64,000 nucleotides of DNA from Allacma fusca (lineage: Eukaryota; Arthropoda; Collembola; Symphypleona; Sminthuridae), in contig OX359246.1 of NCBI GenBank assembly GCA_947179485.1, positions 60,119,632 through 60,183,631 on the forward strand, in the 5' to 3' direction. The notes under the pieces were generated by a model, which saw only the letters and a program-made list of their open reading frames with translations, was not told where the DNA came from and made no database searches. The position numbers were made by a program, and so were the translations under genes. Positions 6,557 through 64,000 of the stretch are shown here, piece after piece. Position 1 is the stretch's first letter. Every line of letters starts with the position of its first letter.

Positions 6557-7302
6557 CAGTGCATCGCATGGGTACGGGTAGTACCTGAGTATTTGGTTAC
6601 AGGTACAGGTCCAGGTCCGAAATGGGTACTCTGTTTAAGTACCCAAACTGAATGGGTATTTTATGGGTACTAGCTATTTGTACCCAAATTTTGGGTACAA
6701 AACCAAGTGTTGGGTACAGGTACAAACTTCGAATTTTTTGGGTTGTACCTGACAGGAACAGGTACAAGCTACCAATATACCCTGACCTGACAAATTAATA
6801 CCCGAAAATGTGGGTACATTTACAAATAAATCCATCTTACGAGGCATCTAGTGTAGTATTTGACTCTCTCTACGACCAATAGGTTTATTTTGATATTCAG
6901 CGTGTTTTGTTGGTTGGCTTAGCACAACGTGCCAGCAATAAGTACGTGTAATTACAAATTCCACTTATGATTCACTAAAAATGGCGTTAAATGATATTTT
7001 GGTTATGGAGGATGTCCTAGAAATGGAAGATTTAATTGGAGATGGCAATACCTCAGATGGCATAGAAGTTATAGTTCCATTAAGATGCCTGTAGTATTGC
7101 AAAAATTATGACGAGGCAGAATTTTTTCTAGCTTGTAATTGGCATGATGTAAATCATCGAATGTCATCATGTTGAATCTTTTACAGTATAAAGCACCTGA
7201 TTGGGTACAGGTACGTACGAAAAATTTTCAGGTACAGGTCCATATATTGAGTATATTTTGGGTACGGGTAAAATTCAGGTACAGGTACGAACTACTTGAA
7301 AA
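6557..7302. mobile_element. hAT-like word-array element, word GGTACC/GGTACA
   Basis: Starts with a hAT-like end, CAGTGCATCGCATGGG. Both flanks of the element are made of degenerate copies of GGGTAC(A/G)GGTAC on either strand. The middle (about 6840-7190) is ordinary sequence with a short open frame from 6980 (MALNDILVMEDVLEMEDLIG) that could be a leftover of a transposase N-terminus, but I cannot identify it. No right-hand end or target duplication is visible; it runs straight into the next element at 7303. The homologous site in copy 3 (around 48450) lacks the insertion. Confidence 0.6.
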
Positions 7303-7560
7303 CAGTGTTGCGACCAAATCAAACATTTTCAGATTCGAAATTGTATTTGAATCCGAATTTCAAATACAATTTATTCACACCTCCTAAATTGATTTGGATT
7401 TGAAAAATCAAATCAACTGAATAAATAACCTATTTGACGAAACCAAATTCAGTGTTTTATTTGAATCCGAATTTTATTTGAATTTCAAATCAACAAATTA
7501 TCCGAAATTTGATTTAATTTGAAATTGGATTTGAACTTGGTTTTTCAAGTTTAAGCTAGC
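7303..7560. mobile_element. hAT-like word-array fragment, word AAATTTGA
   Basis: Begins CAGTGTTGCGACC, close to the other hAT-like ends here. The next ~250 bases are almost entirely permutations of TTTGAAT, GAATTTCAAAT and AAATCAAAT on both strands. I cannot find its other end or a target duplication, so it is probably truncated. Confidence 0.45.
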
Positions 7561-8040
7561 CCAAACAGGTGAATATGGTTATAATGTTATATGAAATATA
7601 AGTCAGCCAAACAATTCTACTCACTAAACTCACAGAGAAATTTCCTAACAATTGTATCAATCCTTTTTACAAGTTTTAGTTGTAACAGCTTGCATAAACA
7701 TCCTTCCACAGTAAGCAAGTCGGTTCCTGTTTCGAATATGCACTCCACATGCACACCAGTTGTTGAAGCTCTTAAACAAGTCTAGCCATTTTTGACACAT
7801 TATGGAATGCGTGTTCATTTTCATAAAACAAAAGTTACAAGCTGTACAGCTGTTCAGATACGAGGAAACGGCACTGAAGTGACCCGAAGGAAGCTAAATA
7901 CTTTTTTAATTCATCCTTTGAATAAAGATTAGGCCGGTTTATTTGACATAACGTCGTGTTGAGGTTCCACATTCGTAGACATATAGAATGTAATACTTTC
8001 ACTATATTTCAACAGTCCAAAATTACCATATGAGTATGGG

Positions 8041-8909
8041 TTAACCCTACTGCTCCCAACCTATGTCCAGCCTGTCCAAAATGGAAAAATTTGAGGAATA
8101 CTATTATTTTTTTAAACTCCAGTTAAACCTACAGATTTGAAAAAAAATGTTTTCGTTTCCGGAAGTGTTTTCTGCTGTTTTAAAAATTTTCAACATTCCA
8201 GGTTCATAAACAAAGCCGCAATAAAATTATAAAAAATTAAAATCCTTATATTTCCGCCATTTTCAATGCTAGATAAGCGGTCCATGCAATTGCATAGGGG
8301 CCATCAAAATATTTCTACGAAATGAAAAGGCAATTTCTATTATTTTGAAGCCACTGGGAAGGCTCAAAGTGGTACACATGTGTAGCAGGGATACCAAAGA
8401 TTGTCCCTATCACCTTTGCAGGTCACATAGGTCAACTTGAGGTCACGATAAAAACGAGTGGAATTCTCCCAAATAAAAGCCATCTGAGAGTTTCAGTTTT
8501 ATTTATAGGAGGCACTGGTGGTAATTGTGTCCTATTGACAATTATTAAGGGGCACCACGCTATAAAATGACGATTTTGACGTTGACCTCATCATACTCTT
8601 TTTTTTTCTCTACAGGTCACAATACACTTCTTGTACCTTGTTTAGGTTTCCACTACAATTAGTTTTGGCAAAACTCGGTATTTGTTTCCGATTTTTTTTT
8701 CATGTAGTGTTTGACCTCCTGATAACCTAGTTGACATCCAGGATCACGGTCTTGAATGAGGATATGTTTGGAGGGGAAAGCAGACATTATTCGTCAGTTA
8801 CACTGTCTAACCTTATTTGACCCAAGTTGACCTGTAAAGGTCGCGTCAGTCATTAGCAAAAAAGTGGCCCAATCTAACCATTTTTAGGTTGAATACAGCG
8901 GGGTTATCA
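8041..8909. mobile_element. Probable TIR element with AGGTCA words
   Basis: Ends are roughly inverted: GTTAACCCTACTG at the left against GATAACCCCGCTG read from the right. Inside, AGGTCA / TGACCT recurs many times, clustered in the right half (from about 8420 to 8850). No target duplication is readable. Bases 7561-8040 to its left hold nothing I recognise. Confidence 0.35.
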
Positions 8910-8926
8910 AAACGTTTCGTCCAGAC

Positions 8927-9185
8927 CAGTGCTCGGCATGGGTACGAAAAATCGGTACCCGTACCCGTATCCGTACCCGAAGTGCGGGTATTGTAATATC
9001 TGGTATCTATACCCGTACCCATACCCAAGTATCCGGGTACAAATTTTTCATACCCGTACCCGCAATGTAATCTCAAACTATGTACCTGTACCCGCATTGT
9101 ACCCGTACCCGAAAAATACTCGAAAATTGTACCCATACGCGTGTATCTCAGTGTCGTACCCGTAATCGTACTCGGGTACTTTATA
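8927..9185. mobile_element. hAT-like word-array fragment, word GGTACCC
   Basis: Starts CAGTGCTCGGCATGGG and continues as degenerate GTACCC(G/A)TACCC for ~250 bp. The word is the one used at 6557, but the array is mainly in the opposite sense. All six frames are open over much of it because of the repeat (for example YPYPYPYP), so it gives spurious ORFs. No right end or target duplication found. Confidence 0.55.
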
Positions 9186-9354
9186 TCCAGATTTCTCTAA
9201 ATGTAGTATATAGTATGTTATGTATAATAATGTATGACAGCTTATTGTTAGTGTGTAATTTTGACTAGCTAGGGCGGTATTTGATTTTGTATATGAGTAT
9301 GTTGTATGAGTATGACCAATAACCATGTATGCTTTCTAAATTTCATGTCTAATT

Positions 9355-9973
9355 CCAACTTTGTTTCTTTTCCAACCCAAATTTTTTACTATACAAGGAG
9401 AAATCTGAATTTACATTAAAATATATCGGGAAAAATCTTCAAATAAAACATGGACCAAAATGAGTACTAAGTACTGACTTATAATAATAAGATAAGAAAA
9501 AGGTAAAATAGAGTTGCACCGTTGCACGGTCGGGCTAATTGTTTATTTGAGAATACGAACAATGAAGGACTTAAAAGTGCACAGGCATAACCATAACTTT
9601 AGGATGGACGAGCTTGTCTCCAAATGTACAAGAAAGATAAAAGTATTGAAATAATGTCTAGAATGTCCAACCCGTGGAATTTAAAATAGCATTTCCTTAC
9701 CTTTACCTCAAGGGTTGATTATGTGCCTGCATACATATTTTTCGTGCATGTGAAGGTCATACTTTGTTATTCACCGCTACTCCAGGTTACCTTCAGGTCT
9801 TATTGCTGTAAGAAATTTTGTACGGTGTATGTATTTTCCTTCTTCAAGTAAGCCAATATCTCATTCTTCTGTGCGCTATCAAACATCTTTCATCGTGTAT
9901 TTGGAATACTACTGGTTTTCTCTGTTGAGATTAAAATTTTGAGATCTTGTAAAACTTTACACTGGAAACTACG
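9355..9973 (+). promoter_or_regulatory. Conserved upstream region of gene B1
   Basis: This stretch is alignable nearly base by base with the region upstream of gene A (20235-20927), apart from an extra ~70 bp in A. It includes a shared block from CATTAAAATATATCGGG to the start codon. Because the A and B introns have diverged more than this, it probably holds the promoter and 5' UTR. I cannot place a TATA box or start site. Confidence 0.5.
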
Positions 9974-13904: not shown

Positions 13905-13913
13905 CCCCGTACC

Positions 13914-14482
13914 CAAAGGCGTCCAAAGGGTTCAGTCTACCTAAAATACTACATATTGTTTGCAGCTTTGCCTTCCCTACATATTAACCTATATTATTTG
14001 TCAAAAATAAATTGCCTACCTATTTGCCTACATATATACTCCTGTAATGTTTCTGCCTATATTTTAGCCTATAGAGGCCTTTTTTGTAGCCTATAAACAC
14101 CTATTTTTAGCCTATAAAGGTTTATTTTTTCAACTAAAAATCATCTATGTATGTACGTGCAATCGTTACACATGAAAAAAATCGAACTACTAAAATGTCA
14201 CGTATTTGAAGAATATTTTTCAGATTTATTTTAAGGTTAAATCAAATAATTGCTTGACAAATTTGTCAATGGATTATTAAATATGCCTATTTTTACCTTC
14301 GCAAACTGCCTACCTTGTTCCTAAATAAAAAGCGAACTCTTGCAGCTCCTACATATAATATAGGATTAATTTTAGCGGTAATTACTGCGCCCTATTTTAC
14401 TACCTATAATGACTTGGATTTTGCATCCTGCCTATTTTTATCCTATAAATAGGCCTATAAATAGGATAGGGAGACACCTTTG
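13914..14482. mobile_element. hAT-like word-array element, word GCCTAT, with 8-bp target duplication
   Basis: Terminal inverted repeats CAAAGGCGTC / CAAAGGTGTC (read from the right). The 8-bp duplication CCCGTACC lies on both sides (13906-13913, 14483-14490). The interior is made of GCCTAT, CCTATATT, CCTATTTTTA and their complements. It is inserted in the 3' UTR of gene B1, just after the stop codon, so transcripts must end inside or beyond it; AATAAA motifs lie inside it and at 14522. Confidence 0.85.
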
Positions 14483-14490
14483 CCCGTACC

Positions 14491-16173
14491 TATAATAACA
14501 GACATTTGTGAAACAAATGATAATAAATGTATAATAAGTTGAGAGTTCAAGTTCAAGTATAACTTGAAATGCTTAAATGCCGGTAAAGTAAAACCATAGT
14601 TTTAACTTGAATTTTCAAGTTAAAGTAACCTCCTGAGACTGAAAACAAAACTAACGAACACAATTGTGTGGTGTCTTTGAGATAAAAGTACAATGTCAAT
14701 CTAAGTGTCTTACGGAATTTACTTTTCTCTTCGAAAATCGGCTTGTTTCAAAACATAAAGTAACGTAAGCCAATATTAATTTACCGATTTCAAAGGCAAT
14801 TCGTGCTAAACTGAAGTAGTGTCCTTTGAAATGAATGGCGTATGACTAAAAGAACATGTTTGTGTAATTATTATGTAAGTACTTACATTCATATCTAATT
14901 ATATGTATCAATTTTTCGGCTTATTCTTGACTATGAATGTGTTTATGAATTTGAATTGTGCAAAATATTAATAGCTATAACAACGGGCAGTGTCCAGTTT
15001 TGTAATTATATTAAATGGATTGTGTATAAATGCAATGCCAATCGGTGTGCTGTAGTAAATGACCATACATACAAACTTACATTATTTCCGGCCGTTGTCT
15101 GTATCTGTACATTGTACATCAATCCCACAGGTATGTATTCAACCTACATTCATTCAAGTAGGCTATTGTGTCCAGCAAATTTTATAGACGTTTTACATTG
15201 TTAATTTTCTGTCTATCCCATAATGTCTTCATTACGAGAATTTTTTCCTAGCCTATATTTTATCTGTAGACCCTACATGTAGGGGTGGCGCCCAGCTTTA
15301 GTGTCCTGTTATCTTGGCCTTAAAATCATGAAATAAAGCGTGTGAATAAATTCTCACTAAATTTCCTAGGACCACTATATTTGATTTTTTTAATGAATAT
15401 TAAAGCTCACTCAACACATGTCAAAACTTTATTTCTACATCATTAAAACAACAGTACTCACTCAGAGCATTGCTTGAGCAAGACAATCAAGTAACAGTCT
15501 CACAGACCTTATAACAAATGTCACTTTCTTTAATTTTCGGATTACTACTGTATTTTCTTCTTGAGGCCTTTACATAGAACGGCTTCATTATGATAGACCT
15601 ACATATATGACCTTTCACAATCATTTTTTATATTTCTCTACGAACCTGGAGCATCAGAAGCGAATTCATATCACTCTGCCTGGATTATTTTCAAATGAAT
15701 ATCCATATTAATCATAATGTTCATGTAGCCAAATTTTAATACTAATAGTTATTACATCTTTTGGTTCGTGTACATTAACAACGCATACATAATTAATTCT
15801 ATAAAAATGAGAAAGCACAAAAAAAGAATTAAAGCAGTATCTATACATATGTTGTGTTTATCAAGAACAAACACAACCTGTGCGCACAACTTAATGAATA
15901 GTTGGTATACATCCCTAATTGTAAATCTAAACTTTTAATTAAAAATTTATAAATTAAAAAATCTTACTGCTTGTACAAATACTACAAAACAGTAGAGGCA
16001 CGATTTGATTCGGAGAGCAAATTCCGTAATACTGGTGCTTAAGCAATCATTGATTATTGCTAATTACATTTTCTTTCCCTTATAGCCAAAGCCTAAGTAT
16101 ACACATGAAACCTTTGATATAATCAAATAACAAAATATTTATATATCCTCATCCATATCTTACTAACTACAGA
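14491..16173. other. Intergenic, B1 to Cys-rich B1
   Basis: AT-rich spacer between convergent genes. Around 14545-14640 there is a short patch of TTCAAG / CTTGAA words like the array at 49176. The rest shows nothing I recognise. An 82-codon open frame at 14956-15204 has no codon or family signal. Copy 2: 35518-37200. Confidence 0.55.
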
Positions 16174-17693: not shown

Positions 17694-17701
17694 ACCGGAA
17701 C

Positions 17702-18252
17702 CAGAGATGCGCAGCCTTGGAAGGCTAGCCTTCCAAGAAGGCTTCCTTGAAGGCGGAAAGGTAACTTTCTTAACGTTGCAGAAGGAATGGAAGGATGGTG
17801 ATACTTTTTTCTGAAGGCTGAAGGAAGCCTTCACAAAAACAAGCAGTGAAGGATTGTGAAGGAAGGCTTCCTAAATATTAGCCCTCCAAGGCCGTGAAGG
17901 CTTCCAGGTACACGAAATATCTATAACGTGAAAGCAAAGCATATCCAACGACGTTTTGCTGCTAGCGCAACAATGCAGCCAATTCGTGAATTTACAATGT
18001 GTGCCGCTATCTTCACTACACTGAATCCTGCTGGTGCAAAACGTTTTTAAGCGGGTTGTAGTTTAAAATTGAAGGAAGGCTATTTTTAGAAGAAGGCTGA
18101 AGGCAAAAATGAGTGCATGTTTATTGGAAGGAAGGGTGAAGGAAGGCAGATTTTTTAGAGGGCTTCATTCTAGGACATGTTGAAGGGAAAATTTTGATTG
18201 AATTTTCGCCTTCGAAGGCTTGAAGGAAGGCTGTTTCCTTTGCGCATCTCTG
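17702..18252. mobile_element. hAT-like word-array element, word GGAAGGC, with 8-bp target duplication
   Basis: Perfect 12-bp terminal inverted repeats CAGAGATGCGCA. Target duplication ACCGGAAC at 17694-17701 and 18253-18260. The interior is dense in GGAAGGC, GAAGGCTT and complements; only a ~150-bp stretch near 17920-18050 is free of the word. The same family appears in opposite orientation at the right edge of the window (63949 on). Confidence 0.9.
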
Positions 18253-18260
18253 ACCGGAAC

Positions 18261-18514
18261 TACTCCCAATAACTTTGCCAGTATGTTTGTTTTCAGGGAT
18301 ATAATATCTGAAAAAATGAAAATTCCCATTTCAATTACAATACCTGCTTAAATGTAATTTCGATTTAAATACGGATTCCGATATACCCAAATAATTTATT
18401 TTGAATTACGATACCAGTTAGTTTAAATACTTTTAAATAATTCCGATTCCTATTCCGATTCTATGTATGTAACTAATAATTTATTAATATTTTTGTCATT
18501 CTGTAAGTCATTCG
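18261..18514. other. AT-rich spacer with TTCCGATTCC words
   Basis: Between two hAT-like elements. It contains repeated GATTCCGAT / AATTCCGATTCC words and TTTAAATAC words over ~130 bp, possibly the remains of another word-array element. No ends visible. Confidence 0.35.
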
Positions 18515-18522: not shown

Positions 18523-19447
18523 CAAAGATGCATTTCCTTCCTACAAGGATCCTACACAAATAGGCATATTTATAGGATAGGAACTGACTTTGCAAGAATT
18601 TATATGTAGGAAAAGGAAGGCATGAAAAATATAATAACTAAAAGTAGGGATAGGATAGCAAGCCTCCTTCCGAGCAAAAGTACAAATAGGAAGGGTAGGA
18701 GTTAGCTGACAAAGCATAAAGTATGGAATATAGGCTTAGTCCAAATGCTTGGGCTGGTATAAAATGGTCGTAATTAATATTATCCAAACAAATCCACTGT
18801 CCAATAAAAACCGGTTTTAACCAAAACGTACCACCGGCTTGGCTAATATTACGCATGCATGAACATAGGGTTGCCAAGTGGTCAGAAATGGCCTGGTTAT
18901 TATCGGTTAAAATCCGGTTCTAACCGGCCCGGACCTGTTGTATAGGTTGGTATAAAATGGCCATAATTAATACTATCCAAATAATTCCACTGTCCAATAA
19001 AAACCGGTTGTTACCATTTCTTGCCACTGGCTTGGCCTTTATTGATAAAAGCCGGTTCTTTGCCAACCCTGGTCCCAGTCCGTCCCAGTCCCTGTATTTG
19101 TTTCATTTTTAAGTCCCAGTCTCAGTCCAGTCCGTATCTGTATCTCAGTTTTTGAAGTCCATCTCAATAGACTGAGTCCCGTTTCCCCAACATTAGCATT
19201 GACTTTTTAATGAAGATTCCAACGTTTCTTAAAAGGATAGGCATACGAATGATTGTTGTATGTCAAAGGAACCTATATAGGAAATAGGAATATATAGGAA
19301 GGCAGAGTTGTCCATGATTTTAAAATATACGCATATAGAAAAAGAGCTCGAGGCTGGCATTTGGACTAGATATAGGATATGTAGGAGAATTTTTTAATAG
19401 CATTTAAAGGAAGGATATATGTACTGTGATTCGATTATGCATCTTTG
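18523..19447. mobile_element. hAT-like word-array element, word AGGATAGG, with 8-bp target duplication and nested arrays
   Basis: Ends CAAAGATGCAT / ATGCATCTTTG are perfect 11-bp inverted repeats. Target duplication ACCACGTC at 18515-18522 and 19448-19455. The outer parts are AGGATAGG / AGGAAGG / CCTATATAGG words. The middle (about 18760-19070) is a different array, AACCGGTT / TTGGC, containing a partly duplicated ~170-bp block, followed by a CCCAGTCC array to about 19200. The middle looks like one or two insertions, but I find no target duplications for them. Confidence 0.85.
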
Positions 19448-27583: not shown

Positions 27584-28329
27584 CAGTGCATCGCATGGGT
27601 ACGGGTAGTACCTGAGTATTTGGTTACAGGTACAGGTCCAGGTCCGAAATGGGTACTCTGTTTAAGTACCCAAACTGAATGGGTATTTTATGGGTACTAG
27701 CTATTTGTACCCAAATTTTGGGTACAAAACCAAGTGTTGGGTACAGGTACAAACTTCGAATTTTTTGGGTTGTACCTGACAGGAACAGGTACAAGCTACC
27801 AATATACCCTGACCTGACAAATTAATACCCGAAAATGTGGGTACATTTACAAATAAATCCATCTTACGAGGCATCTAGTGTAGTATTTGACTCTCTCTAC
27901 GACCAATAGGTTTATTTTGATATTCAGCGTGTTTTGTTGGTTGGCTTAGCACAACGTGCCAGCAATAAGTACGTGTAATTACAAATTCCACTTATGATTC
28001 ACTAAAAATGGCGTTAAATGATATTTTGGTTATGGAGGATGTCCTAGAAATGGAAGATTTAATTGGAGATGGCAATACCTCAGATGGCATAGAAGTTATA
28101 GTTCCATTAAGATGCCTGTAGTATTGCAAAAATTATGACGAGGCAGAATTTTTTCTAGCTTGTAATTGGCATGATGTAAATCATCGAATGTCATCATGTT
28201 GAATCTTTTACAGTATAAAGCACCTGATTGGGTACAGGTACGTACGAAAAATTTTCAGGTACAGGTCCATATATTGAGTATATTTTGGGTACGGGTAAAA
28301 TTCAGGTACAGGTACGAACTACTTGAAAA
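27584..28329. mobile_element. hAT-like word-array element, word GGTACC (copy 2)
   Basis: Duplicate of 6557-7302; it arrived before the 21-kb duplication. Confidence 0.6.
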
Positions 28330-28587
28330 CAGTGTTGCGACCAAATCAAACATTTTCAGATTCGAAATTGTATTTGAATCCGAATTTCAAATACAATTTA
28401 TTCACACCTCCTAAATTGATTTGGATTTGAAAAATCAAATCAACTGAATAAATAACCTATTTGACGAAACCAAATTCAGTGTTTTATTTGAATCCGAATT
28501 TTATTTGAATTTCAAATCAACAAATTATCCGAAATTTGATTTAATTTGAAATTGGATTTGAACTTGGTTTTTCAAGTTTAAGCTAGC
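28330..28587. mobile_element. hAT-like word-array fragment, word AAATTTGA (copy 2)
   Basis: Duplicate of 7303-7560. Confidence 0.45.
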
Positions 28588-29953: not shown

Positions 29954-30212
29954 CAGTGCTCGGCATGGGTACGAAAAATCGGTACCCGTACCCGTATCCG
30001 TACCCGAAGTGCGGGTATTGTAATATCTGGTATCTATACCCGTACCCATACCCAAGTATCCGGGTACAAATTTTTCATACCCGTACCCGCAATGTAATCT
30101 CAAACTATGTACCTGTACCCGCATTGTACCCGTACCCGAAAAATACTCGAAAATTGTACCCATACGCGTGTATCTCAGTGTCGTACCCGTAATCGTACTC
30201 GGGTACTTTATA
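29954..30212. mobile_element. hAT-like word-array fragment, word GGTACCC (copy 2)
   Basis: Duplicate of 8927-9185. Confidence 0.55.
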
Positions 30213-30381
30213 TCCAGATTTCTCTAAATGTAGTATATAGTATGTTATGTATAATAATGTATGACAGCTTATTGTTAGTGTGTAATTTTGACTAGCTAGG
30301 GCGGTATTTGATTTTGTATATGAGTATGTTGTATGAGTATGACCAATAACCATGTATGCTTTCTAAATTTCATGTCTAATT

Positions 30382-34940: not shown

Positions 34941-35509
34941 CAAAGGCGTCCAAAGGGTTCAGTCTACCTAAAATACTACATATTGTTTGCAGCTTTGCCT
35001 TCCCTACATATTAACCTATATTATTTGTCAAAAATAAATTGCCTACCTATTTGCCTACATATATACTCCTGTAATGTTTCTGCCTATATTTTAGCCTATA
35101 GAGGCCTTTTTTGTAGCCTATAAACACCTATTTTTAGCCTATAAAGGTTTATTTTTTCAACTAAAAATCATCTATGTATGTACGTGCAATCGTTACACAT
35201 GAAAAAAATCGAACTACTAAAATGTCACGTATTTGAAGAATATTTTTCAGATTTATTTTAAGGTTAAATCAAATAATTGCTTGACAAATTTGTCAATGGA
35301 TTATTAAATATGCCTATTTTTACCTTCGCAAACTGCCTACCTTGTTCCTAAATAAAAAGCGAACTCTTGCAGCTCCTACATATAATATAGGATTAATTTT
35401 AGCGGTAATTACTGCGCCCTATTTTACTACCTATAATGACTTGGATTTTGCATCCTGCCTATTTTTATCCTATAAATAGGCCTATAAATAGGATAGGGAG
35501 ACACCTTTG
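34941..35509. mobile_element. hAT-like word-array element, word GCCTAT (copy 2)
   Basis: Duplicate of 13914-14482 with the same CCCGTACC target duplication at 34933-34940 and 35510-35517. Confidence 0.85.
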
Positions 35510-38728: not shown

Positions 38729-39279
38729 CAGAGATGCGCAGCCTTGGAAGGCTAGCCTTCCAAGAAGGCTTCCTTGAAGGCGGAAAGGTAACTTTCTTAA
38801 CGTTGCAGAAGGAATGGAAGGATGGTGATACTTTTTTCTGAAGGCTGAAGGAAGCCTTCACAAAAACAAGCAGTGAAGGATTGTGAAGGAAGGCTTCCTA
38901 AATATTAGCCCTCCAAGGCCGTGAAGGCTTCCAGGTACACGAAATATCTATAACGTGAAAGCAAAGCATATCCAACGACGTTTTGCTGCTAGCGCAACAA
39001 TGCAGCCAATTCGTGAATTTACAATGTGTGCCGCTATCTTCACTACACTGAATCCTGCTGGTGCAAAACGTTTTTAAGCGGGTTGTAGTTTAAAATTGAA
39101 GGAAGGCTATTTTTAGAAGAAGGCTGAAGGCAAAAATGAGTGCATGTTTATTGGAAGGAAGGGTGAAGGAAGGCAGATTTTTTAGAGGGCTTCATTCTAG
39201 GACATGTTGAAGGGAAAATTTTGATTGAATTTTCGCCTTCGAAGGCTTGAAGGAAGGCTGTTTCCTTTGCGCATCTATG
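38729..39279. mobile_element. hAT-like word-array element, word GGAAGGC (copy 2)
   Basis: Duplicate of 17702-18252 with target duplication ACCGGAAC. One substitution (39277) breaks the perfect match of its right terminal repeat. Confidence 0.9.
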
Positions 39280-39549: not shown

Positions 39550-40474
39550 CAAAGATGCATTTCCTTCCTACAAGGATCCTACACAAATAGGCATATTTAT
39601 AGGATAGGAACTGACTTTGCAAGAATTTATATGTAGGAAAAGGAAGGCATGAAAAATATAATAACTAAAAGTAGGGATAGGATAGCAAGCCTCCTTCCGA
39701 GCAAAAGTACAAATAGGAAGGGTAGGAGTTAGCTGACAAAGCATAAAGTATGGAATATAGGCTTAGTCCAAATGCTTGGGCTGGTATAAAATGGTCGTAA
39801 TTAATATTATCCAAACAAATCCACTGTCCAATAAAAACCGGTTTTAACCAAAACGTACCACCGGCTTGGCTAATATTACGCATGCATGAACATAGGGTTG
39901 CCAAGTGGTCAGAAATGGCCTGGTTATTATCGGTTAAAATCCGGTTCTAACCGGCCCGGACCTGTTGTATAGGTTGGTATAAAATGGCCATAATTAATAC
40001 TATCCAAATAATTCCACTGTCCAATAAAAACCGGTTGTTACCATTTCTTGCCACTGGCTTGGCCTTTATTGATAAAAGCCGGTTCTTTGCCAACCCTGGT
40101 CCCAGTCCGTCCCAGTCCCTGTATTTGTTTCATTTTTAAGTCCCAGTCTCAGTCCAGTCCGTATCTGTATCTCAGTTTTTGAAGTCCATCTCAATAGACT
40201 GAGTCCCGTTTCCCCAACATTAGCATTGACTTTTTAATGAAGATTCCAACGTTTCTTAAAAGGATAGGCATACGAATGATTGTTGTATGTCAAAGGAACC
40301 TATATAGGAAATAGGAATATATAGGAAGGCAGAGTTGTCCATGATTTTAAAATATACGCATATAGAAAAAGAGCTCGAGGCTGGCATTTGGACTAGATAT
40401 AGGATATGTAGGAGAATTTTTTAATAGCATTTAAAGGAAGGATATATGTACTGTGATTCGATTATGCATCTTTG
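39550..40474. mobile_element. hAT-like word-array element, word AGGATAGG (copy 2)
   Basis: Duplicate of 18523-19447 with the ACCACGTC target duplication and the same inner CCGGTT and CCCAGTCC arrays. Confidence 0.85.
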
Positions 40475-49175: not shown

Positions 49176-50401
49176 CAGAGCTGCGTTCAAGTCAAGTTAT
49201 TTTGGATAATTAAGATAACTTGACTTGAACTTGACTTGAACTTGAAAAATTGCTTAAACGAGGTATCCACAATTGTACTTGATGAATCGAGTTTCTCAAG
49301 CAACTTGAGTATTCAAGTACACGTTTTTCAAGTTCATTTTGTAGAACTTGAACTTGATTAGAACTTGACGTTCAAGTTGGACACACAACTTGACTTGAAC
49401 GTGAACTTGCACTTGACCTTGAATATTCAAGTATTTTTTTCGTAAATGAATAAACAATACTAGAAATTGCGTCCACAACTATTATAGCTCATAATGGTTA
49501 GGCCGTAATTAGGATAAACTAAACGGCGTGCGGACGAAATTCTTTACTTTAAAATTGCCAAAAAGTTTAAAATGAATTAAAAAGCATTGTAGTCTAATTT
49601 AATAATTTCTATAGTTAACAGGTTAGCAATCGTATTATCGGCCTGTTCACATTATGTTGCACTCGTTTGGTGAGTGTAAACAGCAGTTATAATCACGAAT
49701 ATTTGTCGTCGTTAATTTTGCTTAACCAATACTTATTTATAAGATTGTTTGTTGTTCATCTGCTCCATCATGTTTAATATCAACAAAAATCATTCTTACA
49801 GTGAATAATAAATTTCTCTTAAACTTCTTCTTAGATTCAGAACAGGTGAACTAAACAATCACTTCATTTTTATAATGGAACAAGAACCCCGAGTATCAAG
49901 AACATCCTTATAAAACAATAAGTCAGGACTTTTAATTATTCAAAGTATGGAAACAGTACACAAGAATTATTCTCGATCTCGACCACTAGGCTTCGTCAAG
50001 GCGACTTTAAAGTCGATGGAATAAAAACAAACACAAAGATGTTATTATTATGATGGTTCGCATTCAATATTATTTTTAGTGGGATGCAAAGATGCCACTA
50101 ATTCCGCAATTCTTACATTGCTTTTCAGTGACAAAAACCCAATTTATACTCAAGTTTTATTCAAGTACTTCCATTGAGTGTACTTGAAATTGACTTGATT
50201 TTGCTATCAAGTAATATATTATTAACTTGAACTTGATAGAACTTGAACTTGAAAATTAAAATTATAATTTCACTTGAACTTGATGTCCAAGTTTCAAGTT
50301 ACAAAATTGTCTGCACTTGACTTGACTTCAACTTGATACGCACTTGAACTTTTCAAGTTATACTTGAACTTCGTTTCATCGTCCATTTCAGAGCTGCGTT
50401 C
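49176..50401. mobile_element. hAT-like word-array element, word TTCAAG/CTTGAA, right end inverted
   Basis: Left end CAGAGCTGCGTTC, preceded by AAATGGAC (49168-49175). Two dense blocks of TTCAAGT / ACTTGAA words (49190-49440 and 50150-50370) enclose ~700 bp of ordinary AT-rich sequence. At the right, the expected end and target duplication are present but flipped: GTCCATTT (50381-50388), then CAGAGCTGCGTTC (50389-50401). The flipped piece sits between the inverted repeats CGTTTCATCG and CGATGAAACG. Undoing the inversion gives the matching end followed by AAATGGAC. Confidence 0.75.
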
Positions 50402-52676: not shown

Positions 52677-53232
52677 CATATCACTTTGATAAAAATGGCT
52701 ATCCAAAGAAATTTATTCAAAAGAGAATTGAAAGGATGCGAACAAAATTTAATGTTGCAAATCATTATCGTGGAAATTCAAATGAATCAATAATACCAAT
52801 CATGAATAATAGTCCAGGTATTCGAATCTGTGATATAGAAACAAGACGAATAGATGAAATTATTAATAATGAGTATAGAACAATGTCAAATGGAAAAACA
52901 AAGATGGGCACCTATTACTTTCATTGGGAGCTTCCAACATTATTGCAAATCTACTCAGACGAACATTTAATTGGAAACCTACATTCAATCCAGGTGTCTA
53001 AATTAAGAATTTTTTAAATACTGTTAAGGACCACGAAGAGTTAAACCTGGGAGGAATATACCAGATAAAATGTGATTCATGCAATGCTACATACATTGGA
53101 GAAGCAGGACGTCCTCAAGCAATCAGAATTAATGAGCACAAATCACATGTTCAAAAGAACAATTACAAGAAATCTGTAGCTAACCATATACATGAGACGA
53201 AATTGAAATCTAAATCCTCTCTACTAAGTTGA
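52677..53232 (+). mobile_element. Penelope-like element remnant with GIY-YIG endonuclease
   Basis: Bases 53041-53232 read NLGGIYQIKCDSC, TYIGEAGR and RINEHKSHV, with a stop at 53230-53232. This is the GIY-YIG nuclease core (GIY, YIG, conserved Arg and an EHK motif, with a Cys pair in the spacing seen in Penelope-like elements). Upstream, 52677-53017 reads in two frames (FKRELK…, then FNVANHYRGNSN…) and could be the preceding region of the same protein, decayed by frameshifts; that part is only inferred. No terminal structure was found next to it. Confidence 0.65.
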
Positions 53233-53595: not shown

Positions 53596-53615
53596 AATAA
53601 TCAAGAACCTAGGTA

Positions 53616-53960: not shown

Positions 53961-53962
53961 TA

Positions 53963-55277: not shown

Positions 55278-57419
55278 ACAAGGTAACATTTTGGGATGGT
55301 ACAAGCCGATTCAAACAAATGATAGCACATGTTTTAGTACTCACCTAGTATATTTCAAAACTCATGTAACTCGAGTGCATTTTGCCCCGTTCTCTTAGGA
55401 CACGTCACCAAAGTTTCAAAATTTAAAACGATACCACAGGTGGGGACCTGTCTTTTCAAAAAAGTTTATGTTAAATCCCATAAGGATTTTGAGTTTTTGA
55501 AAGTCGATGAAATTTTGATTTTCGCTATTTCAATGAAATTCAAGTTTTTACGTACATAGTTTTATATCCTTCAACAAAATTCCCCAAAAAGTAATCCCTC
55601 CATCATTGCGTATATGTATGTATGTTGTCGATATGATATATTCACTCCATATTTGAAGGGTGGAAAAGCAAAACGCGATCAGTCCCACTGTTTAACATTG
55701 GACTGATCGCGTTTTGCTTTTCCACCCTTCATTTAATCACTTATACATACGCATAACTATTGAGATTTGCCCTATGATTTACATATGTAGAACATTAATA
55801 ATTAGCCCTCCCAAGCAAATATTGTCACATTTGATTGAAAAGTAATCCCTCCAACATGTGCACTAATGATTTCCTCAATGAATCCCTCCAGCATAGTTTG
55901 CTTATCTCTGATGTGCATATGTACAGCCTGTATAGATAGCCCCCCCGCACAAATATCGTCAAATTTTCTCGACAGGTAACCTTTCCAAATTTATATTTGT
56001 TTCACTCCCCAATGAATTATTGATGGGAATAAATTTGGAGAAAATTTGATATTTTATTGGGGGGCAAATTATGGCGACTGTACATATATATGTACGCTAG
56101 AGAAATTAAAAATGCCTGGGCATTTTTGGCTTTATCCCTGTCCAAACTGCTCTGGCATTTTCGGCATTTTCATTTGATGGTATTTTGGTCATCTATGGCA
56201 CGTTGGGTAGTTGGGTATATTCAGCCTAAGGCAGGCATTTTTGCTATGTTCGCTAGAATTGTTTCAATATGTAGCTTTAGCTATGGATCTACTAACTTTG
56301 CATACTAAATCACAAAGCAGTATGTTACAAGTTGAAATAGACAACTTTATGGAAAATATAATAATTATTTTTTTTGGTGTAAGAATTCCTTGTGCACCTA
56401 GTCATTTAGCGTGCAAACACATTTTTGTAAAAATGTAACAAACAAAGATTAAATAACTGTTATCTATATGAAATAATTTTTGCATTGTCACATTTTTGAC
56501 TCCTAGGTTTACTTACTTGGGCTGTTAAAATTCCATTTTCAAAGTCGACCCAAAAATTGCTAAATAAGCTCCAAGTTATAAATTGTTTATAAGATTTATG
56601 TATTTTTGTTAAAAATATTTAAATATAGTCGTCATCAAAATTCGGAACTTACACAGGCACTACGCTAATTACAATTTCAAATCCCAACTCTTTTAGAATC
56701 CTTAAAAAAATTTTTTAAACACTACGTAATTAATTATACCCATTGATTTTTCGTAAACTTAATAAAATTTTCTAAAACTGTATGGGTTCGATTATATCAA
56801 AATGCTCCGGAAAAAACGCTGATCGACCAACAACAGTGTACATGTTTCTGCTAACGTCACCAATACGCTAAAAATGCCCAAAATACCCGGGCACTGACAG
56901 ACTAGAGCATTTTAAGTGCAATTTCAGGTGGGTAGGCATTCATAGGACCCATGACATTTTCATTTGAGTAACCCTGGTTATACTTATGTACATCATAGGG
57001 CAAATCTCAATAGTCCAGTTTATGCGTATGTATAAGTGATTAAATATGGAGTGAATATATCATATCGACAACATACATACAGATGCGCTATGATGGAGGG
57101 ATTACTTTTTGGGGAATTTTGTTGAAGGATATAAAACTATGTACGTAAAAACTTGAATTTCATTGAAATAGCGAAAATCAAAATTTCATCGACTTTCAAA
57201 AACTCAAAATCCTTATGGGATTTAACACAAACTTTTTTTGAAAAGACAGGTCCCCACCTGTGGTATCGTTTTAAATTTTGAAACTTTGGTGACGTGTCCT
57301 AAGAGAACGGGGCAAAATGCACTCGAGTTACATGAGTTTTGAAATATACTAGGTGAGTACTAAAACATGTGCTATCATTTGTTTGAATCGGCTTGTACCA
57401 TCCCAAAATGTTACCTTGT
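55278..57419. mobile_element. 2.1-kb foldback DNA transposon with ~430-bp inverted arms
   Basis: Starts ACAAGGTAACATTTTGGG and ends with its complement. The arms (55278-~55795 including an insertion, and ~56983-57419) are nearly identical inverted copies. The left arm carries a 76-bp hairpin insertion and a ~6-bp loss. The middle holds a GCATTTTTGG / GGCATTTTC patch and its inverse (56110-56250, 56870-56980), possibly a further insertion, and no transposase. No convincing target duplication; superfamily unknown. Confidence 0.8.
55655..55730. mobile_element. 76-bp perfect hairpin inserted in the left arm
   Basis: Two 31-bp arms (55655-55685 and 55700-55730) are exact inverted copies around a 14-nt loop. 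It is absent from the right arm of the host element. ATTT stands on both sides (55651-55654, 55731-55734), so it looks like a very small inserted element with a short target duplication. A small structured-RNA source cannot be excluded. Confidence 0.8.
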
Positions 57420-57554
57420 AAGTGATGCTTTTGATAATAATCAAATATTACAATTATTTAAAAAAAGTTGATATCAATTAATAATTTAATTTTTTGTAAA
57501 ACAAAAGCAAATGTAAAAGAAAGGATAGCTGTAATAGTTTAAGAAATTAGTTGT

Positions 57555-57602
57555 AGATAGCCCGAAGATGAGCACAGTTGTTGTTCGAAAGCTTGCTATT
57601 TA
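57555..57602 (+). other. Penelope-type tail with hammerhead-like core (tentative)
   Basis: ATAGC … GCTAT forms a closing stem around GAAGATGAG, a short stem, and CGAAAGC. GATGAG plus CGAAA resembles the hammerhead ribozyme core that is known from Penelope-like elements. The CTGATGA box is not exact, so activity is doubtful. Confidence 0.3.
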
Positions 57603-57713
57603 TAATAAAAATGGATTCCACTGAAACCAATATAAATGTGAAAAATAATTCTGCATGGTATTTTTAATCTTGATTTTTATGTCATTGATCTTTCAGCTTT
57701 CCTTGTATAATTA

Positions 57714-58290
57714 CAGAGGTCCGAATAAAGTGACCTTCCTTGAAGCCTTCAAAGGCCAATTTTAAAAAAGAATTACTTTTCCTTCTACGTACCAATACTG
57801 TAAATGAAACCTTAAAATTATTTGCATACCCTCAGCCTATATTCAAGTTTTAAATAAATTAACTCTTCCTTCAGCGTTCCTCCAGAAGAAGCCTTTTGAA
57901 CCTGCATTTATTTCAAAATATTACAAATGGCATCAAAACTTTCATGAATTTTCGAAATCAAGTAGTTTTGATCACCAATATCGTCACATATGAATGTGAT
58001 GAATGAAAGTTTGCACAAATATTATATAACAACATTTACACTTCTGACATGTATTTTATGCATAAGGTGTCATCCGGGTGACGCCTGCAATGCATCCGAA
58101 GGGTGCTTGTTAACCCGTTCTCCATTTGCCCCCGCCCACTATTTTTGGCAAATTCGATGAAACCTTTCTCAACCTTCGCAAAGAAATTCAGCGTACCTTC
58201 CAATACCTTCAATCGGATACGAAATCAGTCTGCCACGTTCAATGAAGCCTTCTTTGAAGGCAAACCTTATTCGTAGGCTGGACATGTCTG
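57714..58290. mobile_element. Probable old hAT-like word-array element, word GAAGGC
   Basis: Left end CAGAGGTCCGAATAAAG; right end, read inward, CAGACATGTCCAGCCTACG with a shared CGAATAAGG. Interior rich in CCTTC / GAAGGC / GCCTTC. Flanks TATAATTA (57706-57713) and GATAATTG (58291-58298) share their middle six bases, which would fit a decayed 8-bp duplication. Confidence 0.45.
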
Positions 58291-59013
58291 GATAATTGTT
58301 ATGTTATGCTAGGAATTATTTACCATTTTAGAAATTATCAGATGCGACTGCGCTAATGCGAACAATACTTAGGAAGATTAACGAAAAGCCGACGCAATAA
58401 GTTTTTGTACGAACATATACTAACATTTCGACCACAGAGTTTTAATTATCATGGACGTCAGTAGAGCTACTTTTGGGATCGGGATACACCCGGGAATTGG
58501 GTTCGGGATTGGGAACGGGTTCGAGTTCGGGTGTCTAATTAATGTTCCCAAATACTTTGGAACCAGGTTCAGGAACAAGCTCAGCAGACCCGGGATTTCG
58601 GGATCGGGACCGGGTTTGGGAACGGGTTCAAGCTTGATGTAGGTATCTGTGTTCCCGTCGGGAACCGGGAACATCTTCGTTCCCACACCCGTTACACGCT
58701 TCACGTTCCCGGGAACAACGCATCCATCTAGCGGAGAAAAAAATACCCTCGGCGTCCCTCGTTAAAAAGTTGAGATAATAATTTTGCGTGAGCGACTTGA
58801 GCATATCGTTGGTGAAGAGGCAAAATGATCTAGGTGCATGATCGATTAGAATCAAAATGATCTACTTGCAGTTTCAATAAAGGTAAAATGATCTACTTGC
58901 ATTAAATTTTAAAAGCAAAAGGATCTAGATGCAGCTTTTCCTAAAAGCAAAATGATCTAGATACAAACTACAATAAAAACAATATAAATAAACACATTCT
59001 AATGCCGGTGTAC

Positions 59014-59855
59014 CAAAGATGGGCCCCCAGCCTAGATCTAGGATGGAATCTAGGCAAAAATGCTAGGCTGGCTAACGTCTAGGATGGGCTCCACAAAGTG
59101 ATGGGCGTATAGGGAAGATATAGGGAAGTTGCCAAATAATGGAACATTATGGGCCTAGAGTAGGCTAGGCCTAACGGAAACTATATTGCCTAGACGGATT
59201 ATAAGTAGGCTAGCATATATGGTCCACGTATACAGTCAATTCTTTAAACTTTTTTTTCGGACAAAGTAGTTTGTCAAAATCTACATCAAAACACTCTAAA
59301 TTTAGTGGTGCAAATGGGAAATAATGATTGTTTGTCGTCCTTGCTATTACATAGGACTTCGGAGATGTTTATTTTTCAAGACAAACTTATTTGTCTTCAG
59401 AAGTTCAGAATTATCGTTATTGGTTCGCTTTTATTCTGTGCTTTTTATTTTGATTCGTTTACTTTCGGATTCACTATTCACTTGAAATGGCGGCTGAAGG
59501 CTGCGTTAAAAAATACAGAATGGATGACAATACAACTCAACGTGTAGTAAGCACATGCACAAGTACAAACGTACAAAAGGTACTATGCTTCTCATATGTA
59601 TATGTATGAATGAAGGGTACGAATATAGGCTTATGTGTAGGAAAGGTTGAGGGGCTGCCTTCTAGGCAAGGGTTCGTTTGAATGCCTTTCCTATACACCA
59701 TTATGGGTAGGCTAAGCCGCTAAGCGCTCTTGGATGCCGCAAATGGGGGATGCTTAAATTGTACAAGCTCTGCTTATAGGCTATGAGGTGGGGCCGCCGA
59801 TGATTTTAGAATCTGGGCACGATATAGGCTGGGGTTATACAGAGGCCCATGTTTG
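59014..59855. mobile_element. hAT-like word-array element, word GGCTAGG, with 8-bp target duplication
   Basis: Ends CAAAGATGGGCC / CAAACATGGGCC (read from the right), target duplication CGGTGTAC at 59006-59013 and 59856-59863. The word (TAGGCTAGG, CTAGGATGG, ATAGGCT) is dense in both flanks; a ~300-bp middle is plain. Confidence 0.85.
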
Positions 59856-59867
59856 CGGTGTACAAAT

Positions 59868-60837
59868 CAGTGCTGAGCACAAGTTCAAGTAGACCATGAG
59901 TATTTCAAGTCATGGTCAAGTTCGGGTCATGGTCAAGTTAAAAAATAATTATAACTTGAGCATTCAGGTCATGGTCAGGAAATATATAAACTTGACCATG
60001 ATACTTGAAGTCAAGTAAGCGTCATGGTCAGGTTGGAGAATATTACTTGAGTGTCAAGTCATGTTCATGGTCAAGTCTGATCATGTAAAAACTTGACCAT
60101 GAACCTTGAGTATTTCATGTACAGATTCAAGTAAATTAATAAAGTTGCACATGTCAAAGACACGGCGCATAAACTTTCAAAATAACATTTCGCAAATTGT
60201 TGTTTTATTTTTCAACACGTTTTAACTCATGTTCGGCAGGTAAATTTAACTGCGATTAAATTTGTTACCTGTTTTAACATCTGGCGTTAATAGAATTTGC
60301 TTCAATGAATAAGATTCTTTGATAAATCTTTTTCAGATGAAATTTCGTTTTGTTTATAATTATCTTACATACTATTTACAATTTTGAGACCATGTGAAAG
60401 CAATATATTGAATTGGTTTAACCTTATACATGTATATATGTAATTATATACTGTGAATTTTCTATATAGTGGTTTCCTCTTGGACAGCATATCCTTTAGA
60501 TTAACATGGTTAAATATTCCCTTGTATTACATTTTCATTATGTAATAGTAATATACTGTAATTCACTGTACATGAGCATATATATGTATTGTTCGGGTCA
60601 AGCCATGATCAAGCCATGGTCAAATCATGATCCAGGCATGGTCAAGTCATGGTCAAGTCAAGTGCAATTTTGGTTGGACATGATCATATTCAAGTGACGT
60701 AAAAAGTACTTGATTACTTGACCATGAAATTTCAAGTAATTACCTGAACATGAGTCGCCATGGTTCAAGATCGTATCAAAAAAATACTTGACTTTCATGG
60801 TCAAGTCTGGAATTTACTTGACTTGAGCGCAGCACTG
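59868..60837. mobile_element. hAT-like word-array element, word CATGGTCAAG, with 8-bp target duplication
   Basis: Ends CAGTGCTGAGC / CAGTGCTGCGC (read from the right), target duplication GTACAAAT at 59860-59867 and 60838-60845. The left ~250 bp and right ~240 bp are GTCATGGTCAAGT words; the ~450-bp middle is plain. Its target site overlaps the duplication of the previous element by four bases. Confidence 0.9.
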
Positions 60838-60845
60838 GTACAAAT

Positions 60846-61320
60846 ATGCGAGGTATTAAAAATCTTTTATATATACATTCAATTGCCCAATGCCTCCATT
60901 TTTTTTCAATAACATTGAAATATTTTGTCAATTATGATTTAACATTTGAAAATGATTAATAATAATGAGATGAATGTTATGATAATGTCGATGATCGTAA
61001 AATACGATTTGAAGAAACTCCAGGTTGATAATTATTAAAGGGAAAACCAATTCAATGTGCACACTAACACATGAGCACAGGACCTGTAAACTCTCATTTT
61101 GAATCGTCTTTTAATTCGGCATTTTAAAAATAAATGCAGATTTCATAACAAAAAATGTATTAGATGCAATAAGTCAAATTAACTTTAGTTGCCGGAATGA
61201 TCCTTAGTAATAGCAAACCCTTCAGACCATATTAGCCCATAACCCTAGGTCAATTACAGTTAGCTTTTATAAGACACGTGTCCTCTTTGCAGAAGCTATT
61301 TTTCTCACACAAAAAATTAT
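60846..61320. other. Interior of the 58462 element
   Basis: AT-rich, no word array and no coding signal recognised. Confidence 0.4.
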
Positions 61321-62109
61321 ACCAGCACTTAGATCATTTTGCTTTTATGGAAAATTGTATGTAGATCAGTTTGCTTTTAAAGAGGCTTGCACCCAGTTCA
61401 TTTTGCCTTTAGGGAAAAAGTTATGTAGATCATTTTGATTCTAATCGATTATGTACCTAGATCATTTTGCCTCTTCACCGACGATATTGTCAGTTGGGAT
61501 CGCATAGTAGTGATTTCTGTCTACTCTAACTTGCAAGATGAAAGTCATTGCAAAACCCATAGTGGGAATCGTTTAAGCAGTCTTCCTGCAGCTTTTTCGG
61601 CAACGCAGACCAGACGTTTAGTTTGATGACCATTTTTAATAATGCCTAAAGCTATTGTTGCATGGTACGCATGCATAAGTATTGCGAAATCAATAAAAAT
61701 GTGAAGAAAAAATTTGATTTACACTAACTGTACTGGTCCCGGGAACGAGTCCGGGTTCAAGGGATTTGGGATCGTTATTGGGAGCAAATTTTATCTGATT
61801 TCGGGATCGGGTTTAAGATCAACGATTGAAGCATATTTAATATATGGGTTTTTGTGCACCCGATCCCAGTATTTCGGGAACGGGTTCGGGTTTGAGTCCG
61901 AAAATATTGATGACCCGATTTTCGGGATCGGGTTCGGGAATGGGATCAAAATTTTCGTTCTCACAAGTAGCTCTAGACGTCAGTACTTTATTTCATTTTG
62001 TATACTGGAAATGACATCCATAGTTTTAAACCAAAAATTTGTTTACTGTAACTCGTAATATCCATTATTATGCATTTTTTATGATGCATGTCTAGGGTTT
62101 GTCTGTTTT

Positions 62110-62540
62110 TAAATGTCATGGAGTATATGGCAAATTAGGCAGGCATATTTGGCAGGCATTTAGGGAATTTATTCACATGGGCATAAAATGATTTTTATGC
62201 CATTCTGGCAGAATTGGCATTTAATATATTTTGCCTTGGCAAAATTGGCATAAATTAGCGATGCTCACGGGACGCTCTATTTCCGGCATCATTGATGCTT
62301 GCTCCGAACGTGGCTAATTTTAAAATATATAAAACTTGCGAAGTACCGGTATCTCAATGCACGTAGTAGTGGTAGTAGCAAGTCAAAACGCATCTTATTG
62401 CATATTAAAATTTGTGTAAGCATACACTTGTTTACCTTTCGTTCGGCATTTATTTTTAAGGGCAATGTGAAGGCATAAATTGTTTATTTTGCCTTGCAGT
62501 TGGCAAAAATACCGCGTAGGTGAAATACCTAAGGTATTTA
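62110..62540. repeat. GGCATTT / TTGGCA word array
   Basis: Degenerate GGCAGGCATTT, TTTTGGCAAAATTGGCAT words at both ends of a ~430-bp tract, similar to the patch inside the foldback element at 56110. No terminal repeat or target duplication found. Bases 61984-62109 are plain. Confidence 0.45.
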
Positions 62541-62575
62541 AAAATTGATAAACGCGGTGCATTTCATCATTTTTA

Positions 62576-63021
62576 GGGTGGCGTTAGCCCCTTGTAAAAT
62601 AACCATGTTCGTACGTCCGTCCGTGTGTCCTTCCTCACGATTACTGAAAAACTACTGGTCCGATTTCAATGAAATGTTTTATGAATATTATTTGTGTCAA
62701 AAGTAAGGCTGATTGTGAGTTCGTATTTTGTGAATATTGCATATGTAAATAGTAATAGTTGCTGGTTATGTTGTTGAAATCGACCTTATAGGGTTTTCAA
62801 AAAAAATTCTTGAAATTTTGTACTTTAAGTCAAATGACGGCTATCTCTAAAACTTGTGAACCGATGTCAAAGAAGTTTTTTGTGAATATTGCTTATGTAA
62901 ATCGGAATGGTTATTGCTTATGTGGTTGAAATCGGCCCGATACTTGTTTTTAAAAAAACTCTGAAATTTTGAAAAAAGCTTAAAATTCATCCTACTTTGA
63001 CGGCGGTGGCTGACGCCACCC
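62576..63021. mobile_element. 446-bp MITE with TA target duplication
   Basis: Ends GGGTGGCGTTAGCC / GGGTGGCGTCAGCC (read from the right), with TA on both sides (62574-62575, 63022-63023). Contains CGTACGTCCGTCCGTG and repeated GGTCCGATTTCAATGAAA-like blocks. Probably Tc1/mariner-type; no transposase. Confidence 0.7.
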
Positions 63022-63334
63022 TACGCAAAGCCTCAATTTATCGCGCAGCGATGACTTTTAAAGGTTGTTTTGGATGGAGATGCGACTATAAACTTTTCAA
63101 TAATCTCCGCAAAGTCCCATTTTCAATACCACAGGAGGTCAGGCAAGGTTATTACCACTAAAAATAAATTTGGACACCTCTTGAAGGCAAAAGTGTCTTC
63201 AAAAATTGAGCCTAGGATATTTATTCTTTACTGTTTCTAATGACTGAGCCGCCTGGCCCACATAAGGGAGTAACTAATAGAACAGTTGATTCTCCAGTTT
63301 TGTAGTAAATTATTTTCAAGATTTTGTAAACGTT

Positions 63335-63570
63335 TCATTGACATTGGTTAATTGTTGCTGTCACGGTCGAAATTTCTTTCAGAATTAAATATTTACTGTT
63401 TTCAACACAATTTATGAAATCCTTCTTGTAAGAAATTTTATGGTCTTTCCGAAGAGCTCTCACATAGGCCATGACATTGAGGATCGGCGCCATGAGAATT
63501 AAACAACAAAAGCAAAGTTGAGGAAAATTCAGGAGTGAAAGAAAGCCCAAAGGTAACGAGAAATAGAACT
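63335..63570 (-). other. Open frame with hydrophobic start (weak)
   Basis: The minus strand is open for ~80 codons: a hydrophobic run (LGFLSLLNFPQLCFCC, then LILMAPILNVMAYV), then RALRKDHKISYKKDFINCV. It has no in-frame ATG at the start and no clear splice sites. The pattern vaguely recalls an insect chemoreceptor exon, but this could be chance. Bases 63024-63334 and 63571-63948 show nothing else. Confidence 0.25.
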
Positions 63571-63948
63571 TATGTTTTATATTTTTTCATGGCGTACTTG
63601 ACGGTTGTAAAAATATTTCAAAACATTATATGTGTATCAAATTTTATGGGTATTCGTGTGAGTTTTTTATGACCTTAATATTCAAAAATGTGCATCTCGG
63701 TGGTGCAAAAATCTGACGCAAGGCTTTAATAAAAAATTAGTATTTCTGATGAAAGCTTTTTCAAATAATAAAAACCCAGTAAATTTTAAATACGCGTTAA
63801 ATAACCCTGTAAACTCGCACTGTTGTTTCCTATTTGCGTTGTTCATTCACTTTAGTATATAGCTTCTTCTATTTTAAGTCCAAATGCGAAGGAATACTGG
63901 ACCTTAGATTGTCCTAGCTGTTGTTCGTTTCAACCTTTCGGGTTGTTG

Positions 63949-64000
63949 CAGAGTTGCGCAAAGGAAACAGCCTTCCTTCAAGCCTTCGAATTCAGTAAAA
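63949..64000. mobile_element. hAT-like word-array element, word GGAAGGC, cut by window end
   Basis: Starts CAGAGTTGCGCAAAGGAAAC and continues into CCTTCCTTCAAGCCTTCG. This is the right end of the family at 17702-18252 in reverse orientation. Confidence 0.75.

Follow-up and report, generated by a model that had tools for sequence, protein, structure and literature searches.

The stretch analyzed here, 64,000 nucleotides of contig OX359246.1 (hereafter the window), looks eukaryotic and contains a series of short elements, designated by E numbers, whose terminal tips, 8-bp target site duplications (TSDs) and dense clusters of short repeated words suggest a hAT-like build. It opens with a 21,027-bp tandem unit (positions 1-48450), whose units 1 and 2 share 99.95% identity; unit 3 is only partly kept (98.4% and 95.4% identical to unit 1) and can be followed up to unit-1 position 6549 (about 48,450), where the match ends 8 bp before the left tip of E8a. 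Since units 1 and 2 are nearly identical, E1, E2, E3, E8a, E8b and E9 are present in two copies each (99.8-100% identical); first-unit elements with a tandem copy are counted once, and no strand is assigned to E1 through E7 or to E1b.

Six of the loci have readable TSDs as they stand. E1 (17702-18252, 551 bp; tandem copy 38729-39279) carries the tip CAGAGATGCGCA at both ends (12/12), is flanked by the TSD ACCGGAAC, and contains 15 copies of the word GAAGGC. E2 (18523-19447; tandem copy 39550-40474) has the tips CAAAGATGCAT, the TSD ACCACGTC and the words ATAGGA and AGGAAGG. In E3 (13914-14482, 569 bp; tandem copy 34941-35509), the tips CAAAGGCGTC and CAAAGGTGTC agree at 9/12 positions next to the TSD CCCGTACC; this is the weakest pair, and its support comes more from the type of tip and from the words, GCCTAT and AAATAGG, than from the pair alone. 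E7 (58462-61975; TSD GACGTCAG) has tips TAGAGCTACTT that are 11/12 alike but begin with TAGAG and not with CARNG. Its GGGTTCGGGA-type words occupy approximately the first and last 300 bp, and its middle is a nested inverted-repeat stretch, an inverted arm pair at 58809-61481 made of ~32-bp repeats with GATCTA words and showing no clear target duplication, which encloses E5 (59014-59855; tips CAAAGATGGGCC and CAAACATGGGCC, TSD CGGTGTAC, words CTAGGC and CCTAGA) and E6 (59868-60837; tips CAGTGCTGAGCA and CAGTGCTGCGCT, TSD GTACAAAT, words CATGGTC and ACTTGA, the latter as CATGGTCAAGT).

E4 (49176-50400), with 37 copies of the word ACTTGA counting overlaps, becomes readable once a 19-bp segment at 50382-50400 is turned back. 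Flanked by the 10-bp inverted arms CGTTTCATCG and CGATGAAACG, this segment has been inverted in place and contains the right tip together with 7 of the 8 bases of the right TSD; after re-inversion, the tips CAGAGCTGCGTT match at 12/12 positions and AAATGGAC flanks the element on both sides. Template switching may have produced the inner arm. With E4 so restored, the tips of E1 through E6 all start with CARNG and match at 9-12 of 12 positions. The initial annotation had reported at least seven elements with related ends and 8-bp duplications, one of them legible only after undoing a small inversion, and this description holds, with six exact loci plus the re-inverted E4, and with E7 standing apart in its tip.

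We scored pairs of tips with 9/12 or more positions in agreement, separated by 150-6000 bp and flanked by exact 8-bp repeats. Nine such pairs are present in the window, corresponding to the six loci E1, E2, E3, E5, E6 and E7 and to three tandem-duplicate copies. Of 40 dinucleotide shuffles, 29 yielded at least one pair (none in 11, one in 13, two in 7, three in 7, four in 1 and five in 1), the maximum being five against the nine of the window; tips at least 10/12 alike were seen in 6/40, and a CARNG-type tip in 1/40. When one flank mismatch is allowed, the window contains 37 pairs, tandem copies included, compared to 14-33 in ten Markov controls, and inexact flanks therefore carry little weight. 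Comparison of flanks revealed no empty site, i.e. no paralogue within the window that joins both flanks of any element.

The remaining arrays have weaker ends. E8a (6557-7302, + strand; tandem copy 27584-28329) has the left tip CAGTGCATCGCATGGGTAC and the words GGGTAC and CAGGTAC; its right tip was not found, and its right boundary is assumed. Another left end of this type, E8b (8927-9190, + strand; tandem copy 29954-30217), begins with CAGTGCTCGGCATGGGTAC and holds 13 copies of GGGTAC, and its right tip was not found either. For E9 (7303-7560, + strand; tandem copy 28330-28587), with the left tip CAGTGTTGCG and the word ATTTGAA, neither a right tip nor a TSD was found. No tip pair with an 8-bp duplication was detected for E8a, E8b, E9 or the CAGGGATTTT stretch, the sole candidate pair for E8a lying off its tip (7/12, one mismatch), and two-tip searches of the CAGGGATTTT, AAATTTGA, GGTACC (E8b), GGCATTTT and GGCATA stretches yielded no pair. 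The weak-ended GGTACC, AAATTTGA and CAGGGATTTTGAAA arrays, which the initial annotation had tentatively placed beside the seven elements, have no tip pair with an 8-bp duplication, whether exactness is required or one mismatch is allowed.

Raw counts of the most frequent k-mers proved misleading, as the signal is diluted by A/T runs and by cores that lack words, and were replaced by composition-corrected and ends-only scores. In the ends-only test, the best k-mer was left free to vary in real and control sequences alike, and the post-hoc controls for word enrichment consisted of 300 shuffles and 300 pairs of background stretches. The end regions of E1 through E7 and of E8a exceed all 300 shuffles at both k = 6 and k = 7. 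At k = 6, the observed value was reached by none of the 300 background pairs for E1, E2, E4, E5, E6 and E8a, and by a single pair for E3 and E7; at k = 7, it was reached by 12 pairs for E7, three for E5 and one for E2. When scored over the whole element, E2, E5 and the right part of E7, as well as the CAGGGATTTT and GGCATA stretches, are weak or not above background. With mismatches allowed, the words cover 47% and 53% of the two terminal 200-bp regions of E4 (core 4%) and 52% and 41% of those of E6 (core 9%); the corresponding values are 41% and 29% for E1, 47% and 19% for E8a, 32% and 27% for E7, and 16% and 21% for E3, and shuffled ends average 3-8%.

The words are concentrated next to the tips. 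Seven elements, not counting E7 with its nested insert, hold 109 word copies; 106 of these are no more than 250 bp away from an end, and the farthest is at 259 bp; the start of E8a was taken one base late in these positions and in the gap figures. The largest word-free gaps are 723-734 bp in E4, where a core of about 720 bp is nearly devoid of ACTTGA, 591 bp in E2, 504-515 bp in E6, and 391 bp in E8a, the last depending on its assumed right boundary; by eye, an insert may be nested in the core of E2. The Kolmogorov-Smirnov test finds significant confinement of the words to the ends in E4 (p = 5.5e-13), E6 (p = 2.9e-6), E2 (p = 5e-4), E8a (p = 0.006) and E5 (p = 0.008). The initial annotation had the words filling the whole body of each element, as if a binding word had been amplified across it; their distribution is instead subterminal. 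Copies occur on both strands with irregular spacing, and in E4 the spacings are often 5, 6, 10, 11 or 16. A helical periodicity of spacing was not supported, with one of 16 tests falling below 0.05 (p = 0.028).

Most words reach a density in their own element that is from about 15-fold to more than 100-fold that of the background, with some cross-talk. Those of E1, E7, E8 and E9 are mostly distinct, in line with the proposal that each family has a word of its own, but this does not extend to the entire set: ACTTGA is common to E4 (26 per kb) and E6 (23 per kb), and E2, E3 and E5 share AGG/CCTA-type words, with ATAGGA and GCCTAT occurring in all three. Word-spectrum similarity is 0.54 for E4/E6, 0.20-0.37 within E2/E3/E5 and 0.24 for E1/E2, and lies below 0.2 for all other pairs among the nine families. 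In five of the seven two-ended elements, the best match of the left array is the right array of the same element; the left array of E2 prefers the right array of E3 (0.49 vs 0.47 for its own), and that of E5 prefers the right arrays of E2 and E3 (0.22 vs 0.18). For E8, the ends compared are the left ends of its two copies, E8a and E8b, which also score as best matches. In a flank control on six elements, own pairs scored 0.14-0.30, and one high value, 0.82, arose where the right flank of E1 and the left flank of E2 are one and the same stretch.

Words are shared where ends are shared. E11 (63949-64000, + strand), a further E1-family copy end cut by the window edge, matches the right end of E1 over 42 bp at 98% and carries the same word; E8a and E8b have both tip and word in common; and E1b (57714-58290), a decayed E1-family member in reverse orientation with flanks TATAATTA and GATAATTG that are 6/8 alike, matches E1 at both ends (75-77% over ~50 bp), but its own words do not rise above background, their score being equalled in 19 and 28 of the 300 background pairs. 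Same-family copies with unrelated words were not seen in these three comparisons, one of which is weak. Between families, tip distance and word similarity are only weakly correlated: Mantel coefficients range from -0.26 to -0.45 over eight settings, with permutation p values of 0.007-0.053, and the rank correlation is not significant (p = 0.12-0.36). E4 and E6, which have ACTTGA in common, differ at one tip base; E6 and E9 also differ at one of 10 tip bases and have unrelated words, which weighs against a tight coupling between tip and word.

We interpret the elements, with a probability of about three in four, as hAT-like DNA transposons, small and non-autonomous, that move by cut and paste and in which the words are present or former binding sites of matching transposases. 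The partner transposase would cleave at the short tips of about 10-12 bp, and the 200-250 bp inside each tip, densely filled with loose copies of a 6-8-bp word, would most likely serve as its binding region, recognized through an N-terminal BED zinc finger; many such sites could raise the local enzyme concentration and help to pair both ends, leaving the core between the end arrays as filler. Families would then differ in their words insofar as their putative transposases differ in binding preference. Transposase binding, as proposed in the initial annotation, appears to be the most economical reading of the words, provided that amplification across the body is dropped from it. The elements would be non-autonomous, as it had also supposed, in agreement with the lack of any coding trace in 30 scanned ORFs (stop to stop, 38-123 aa), which are part of the ORFs in the window: 27 are located in E1 through E8a, one comes from the stretch at 55.3-57.4 kb, and the other two belong to a Penelope-like remnant. 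Apart from the GIY-YIG match of this remnant, given below, matches in these ORFs were few, weak and under the curated cut-offs.

Comparison with described hAT systems places the elements on familiar ground. In maize Ac/Ds, which has 11-bp tips, 8-bp duplications and non-autonomous members, hexamer repeats lie within ~200 bp of the Ac ends, about 200 bp per end is needed for wild-type transposition, and the AAACGG repeats are bound by the transposase; Ds1 has only the tips and a few hexamers in common with Ac, and Ds2 retains the Ac ends with filler between them (PMC3260210). The present locus differs in combining several word families and in the extent to which words cover the terminal 200 bp, up to about half in E4 and E6. 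The Herves transposase of Anopheles gambiae similarly binds a repeated 8-bp word with variants, CG/AATTCAT, at both ends, and the binding regions are stated to differ in sequence among hAT elements; unlike the elements described here, which are known from DNA alone, Herves has a tested transposase (PMC3143072). In Ac and Tol2 each end has words of its own (PMC3143072), whereas here it is mostly one word at both. Hermes also has short repeats concentrated towards its tips, where its BED domain binds AAG(T/C) repeats, and requires ~220 bp of each end in cells (PMC10368747). On the protein side, a survey of hAT-derived CGG-binding proteins found diverse word preferences, where here only the DNA side is seen: hAT DNA-binding domains prefer different 8-mers, and for each of the four hAT-encoded domains tested, the preferred 8-mers match the element's own subterminal regions (PMC8097297). 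Subterminal binding repeats that differ among hAT elements are already described for Ac, Tol2, Tag1, Herves and Hermes (PMC3143072, PMC3260210, PMC10368747), and the suggestion of a new class is not sustained; the layout is that of Ac/Ds and Herves, with tips plus family-specific subterminal repeats, in a rich local set of a known kind.

Several observations weigh against this interpretation. No hAT, BED or other transposase match was obtained in the 30 scanned ORFs, as would be expected of non-autonomous copies in any case. In E1 (p = 0.052) and E3 (p = 0.19) the words are not significantly confined to the ends, and for both the 250-bp count says little, half of the element being shorter than 285 bp; these two resemble whole-body arrays because their two end arrays nearly meet, and even they have mid-element gaps of 179 and 175 bp, respectively. 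E1 and E4 differ at one of 10 tip bases, yet their word similarity is 0.05. The hexamer is missing from 314 of 331 maize Ds1 elements, and seven tested Ds-l elements were not excised, though Ds-l3 and Ds-l4 elements have hexamers (PMC3260210). In Hermes, about 70% of activity remained once the putative BED sites lying past the first 50 bp of the left end were mutated, so that the inner repeats are dispensable there (PMC10368747), a difference from the role suggested here that lowers our confidence. Finally, the strand on which the majority of word copies lie is identical at both ends in all seven informative elements (E1, E2, E3, E4, E6, E7 and E8a, with E5 tied; counted on the first-listed word of each, two-sided sign p = 0.016, by hand), and is not mirror-imaged like the tips. 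Single-element binomial tests are weak (p = 0.016 to 0.55 in the seven), and of all 25 word counts, which are not independent within one element, 22 are same-strand, 3 are tied and none is mirror-image. If each end were read inward from its own tip, one would naturally expect mirror symmetry, from which the same-strand lean departs. The left-end repeats 2-7 of Hermes are given as antisense and the right-end repeats 1-5 as sense, a polarity not directly comparable with ours (PMC10368747).

This lean would fit duplication in place, and the arrays could then be a by-product of slippage, that is, short tandem expansions near the ends which have since drifted and have no binding role. Short arrays in E3, E4, E6 and E7 are picked up by Tandem Repeats Finder, and the recurrent spacings in E4 point the same way; slippage would nevertheless leave unexplained why the arrays break off roughly 250 bp inside each end and why one word occupies the left and right arrays across a word-poor core, and it sits poorly with irregularly spaced copies on both strands, leaving it very unlikely in our view. 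Even harder to credit is a role of the words in a single-strand fold-back structure rather than in protein binding. Such folding has been proposed for some miniature inverted-repeat transposable elements, and as single-stranded DNA E1 (z = -5.4, 100 shuffles) and E6 (z = -12.4, 20 shuffles) fold far better than their controls, which are all shuffles, none keeping the words while changing their order; but any set of words present on both strands would fold in this way, the same-strand lean is opposite to what pairing of ends would favor, and the folding data cover these two elements only.

A different superfamily with 8-bp duplications and short tips, to which some or all of the elements would belong, with the words still acting as subterminal binding sites, is unlikely, if less so than slippage. 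It could draw on the lack of a transposase in the scanned ORFs, on the TAG start of E7 and the 9/12 tips of E3, and, by eye, on duplications without a clear hAT consensus. CARNG-type tips, exact 8-bp duplications and subterminal repeats are, on the other hand, typical of hAT elements, and it is from this combination that we infer hAT membership. Ac/Ds itself has this build (PMC3260210).

On a more speculative and, in our view, unlikely extension, the locus might sample a radiation of hAT-like families within one genome whose cleavage tips change more slowly than their subterminal words; where tips are shared, divergence of the word might by itself tell families apart. The single strand polarity across both ends might then be a trace of once-continuous arrays or of an end-asymmetric complex. 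As it stands, the layout is an ordinary one, richly represented, and what has been corrected is the idea of element bodies as arrays. Should the host genome bear the set out, it would provide a natural series for following co-change of transposase binding specificity and element ends, and the combination of near-identical tips with different words would bear on the ways in which non-autonomous copies come to capture a transposase or to escape one.

Searches for relatives outside the window added little. Viral-contig scans returned nothing, or one phage-like contig, which was rejected since its two matches sit in a repeated, probably coding stretch; 88 prokaryote stretches from a genome-contig scan were judged to be chance, with at most 3 word copies per 300 bp vs 19 in E4. 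No title or abstract opening describing this set of families was found in a literature search that left most subscription papers and Repbase outside its reach.

Other features of the window include an element at 55279-57418 with long inverted arms (~390 bp, 97-99%), the tip CAAGGTAACATT and the 3-bp flank TAA, inside which lies a stretch of GGCATTTT words (~56100-56975). At 53002-53229 there is a remnant of a GIY-YIG endonuclease (Pfam PF01541, E = 2.4e-4, slightly under the curated cut-off), which we take to be Penelope-like. The edges of the 62566-63020 stretch, AGGGTGGCGT and ACGCCACCCT, resemble by eye the ends of another inverted-repeat element, and no 8-bp duplication was found there. 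The tandem unit carries diverged copies of a gene, seen as ORFs at 2634 and 11742, that has a TPR-like segment; 11742-12101 matches designed TPR proteins. A tipless fragment with TTCAAG words at 14520-14660 resembles the right end of E4 (88% over 32 bp).

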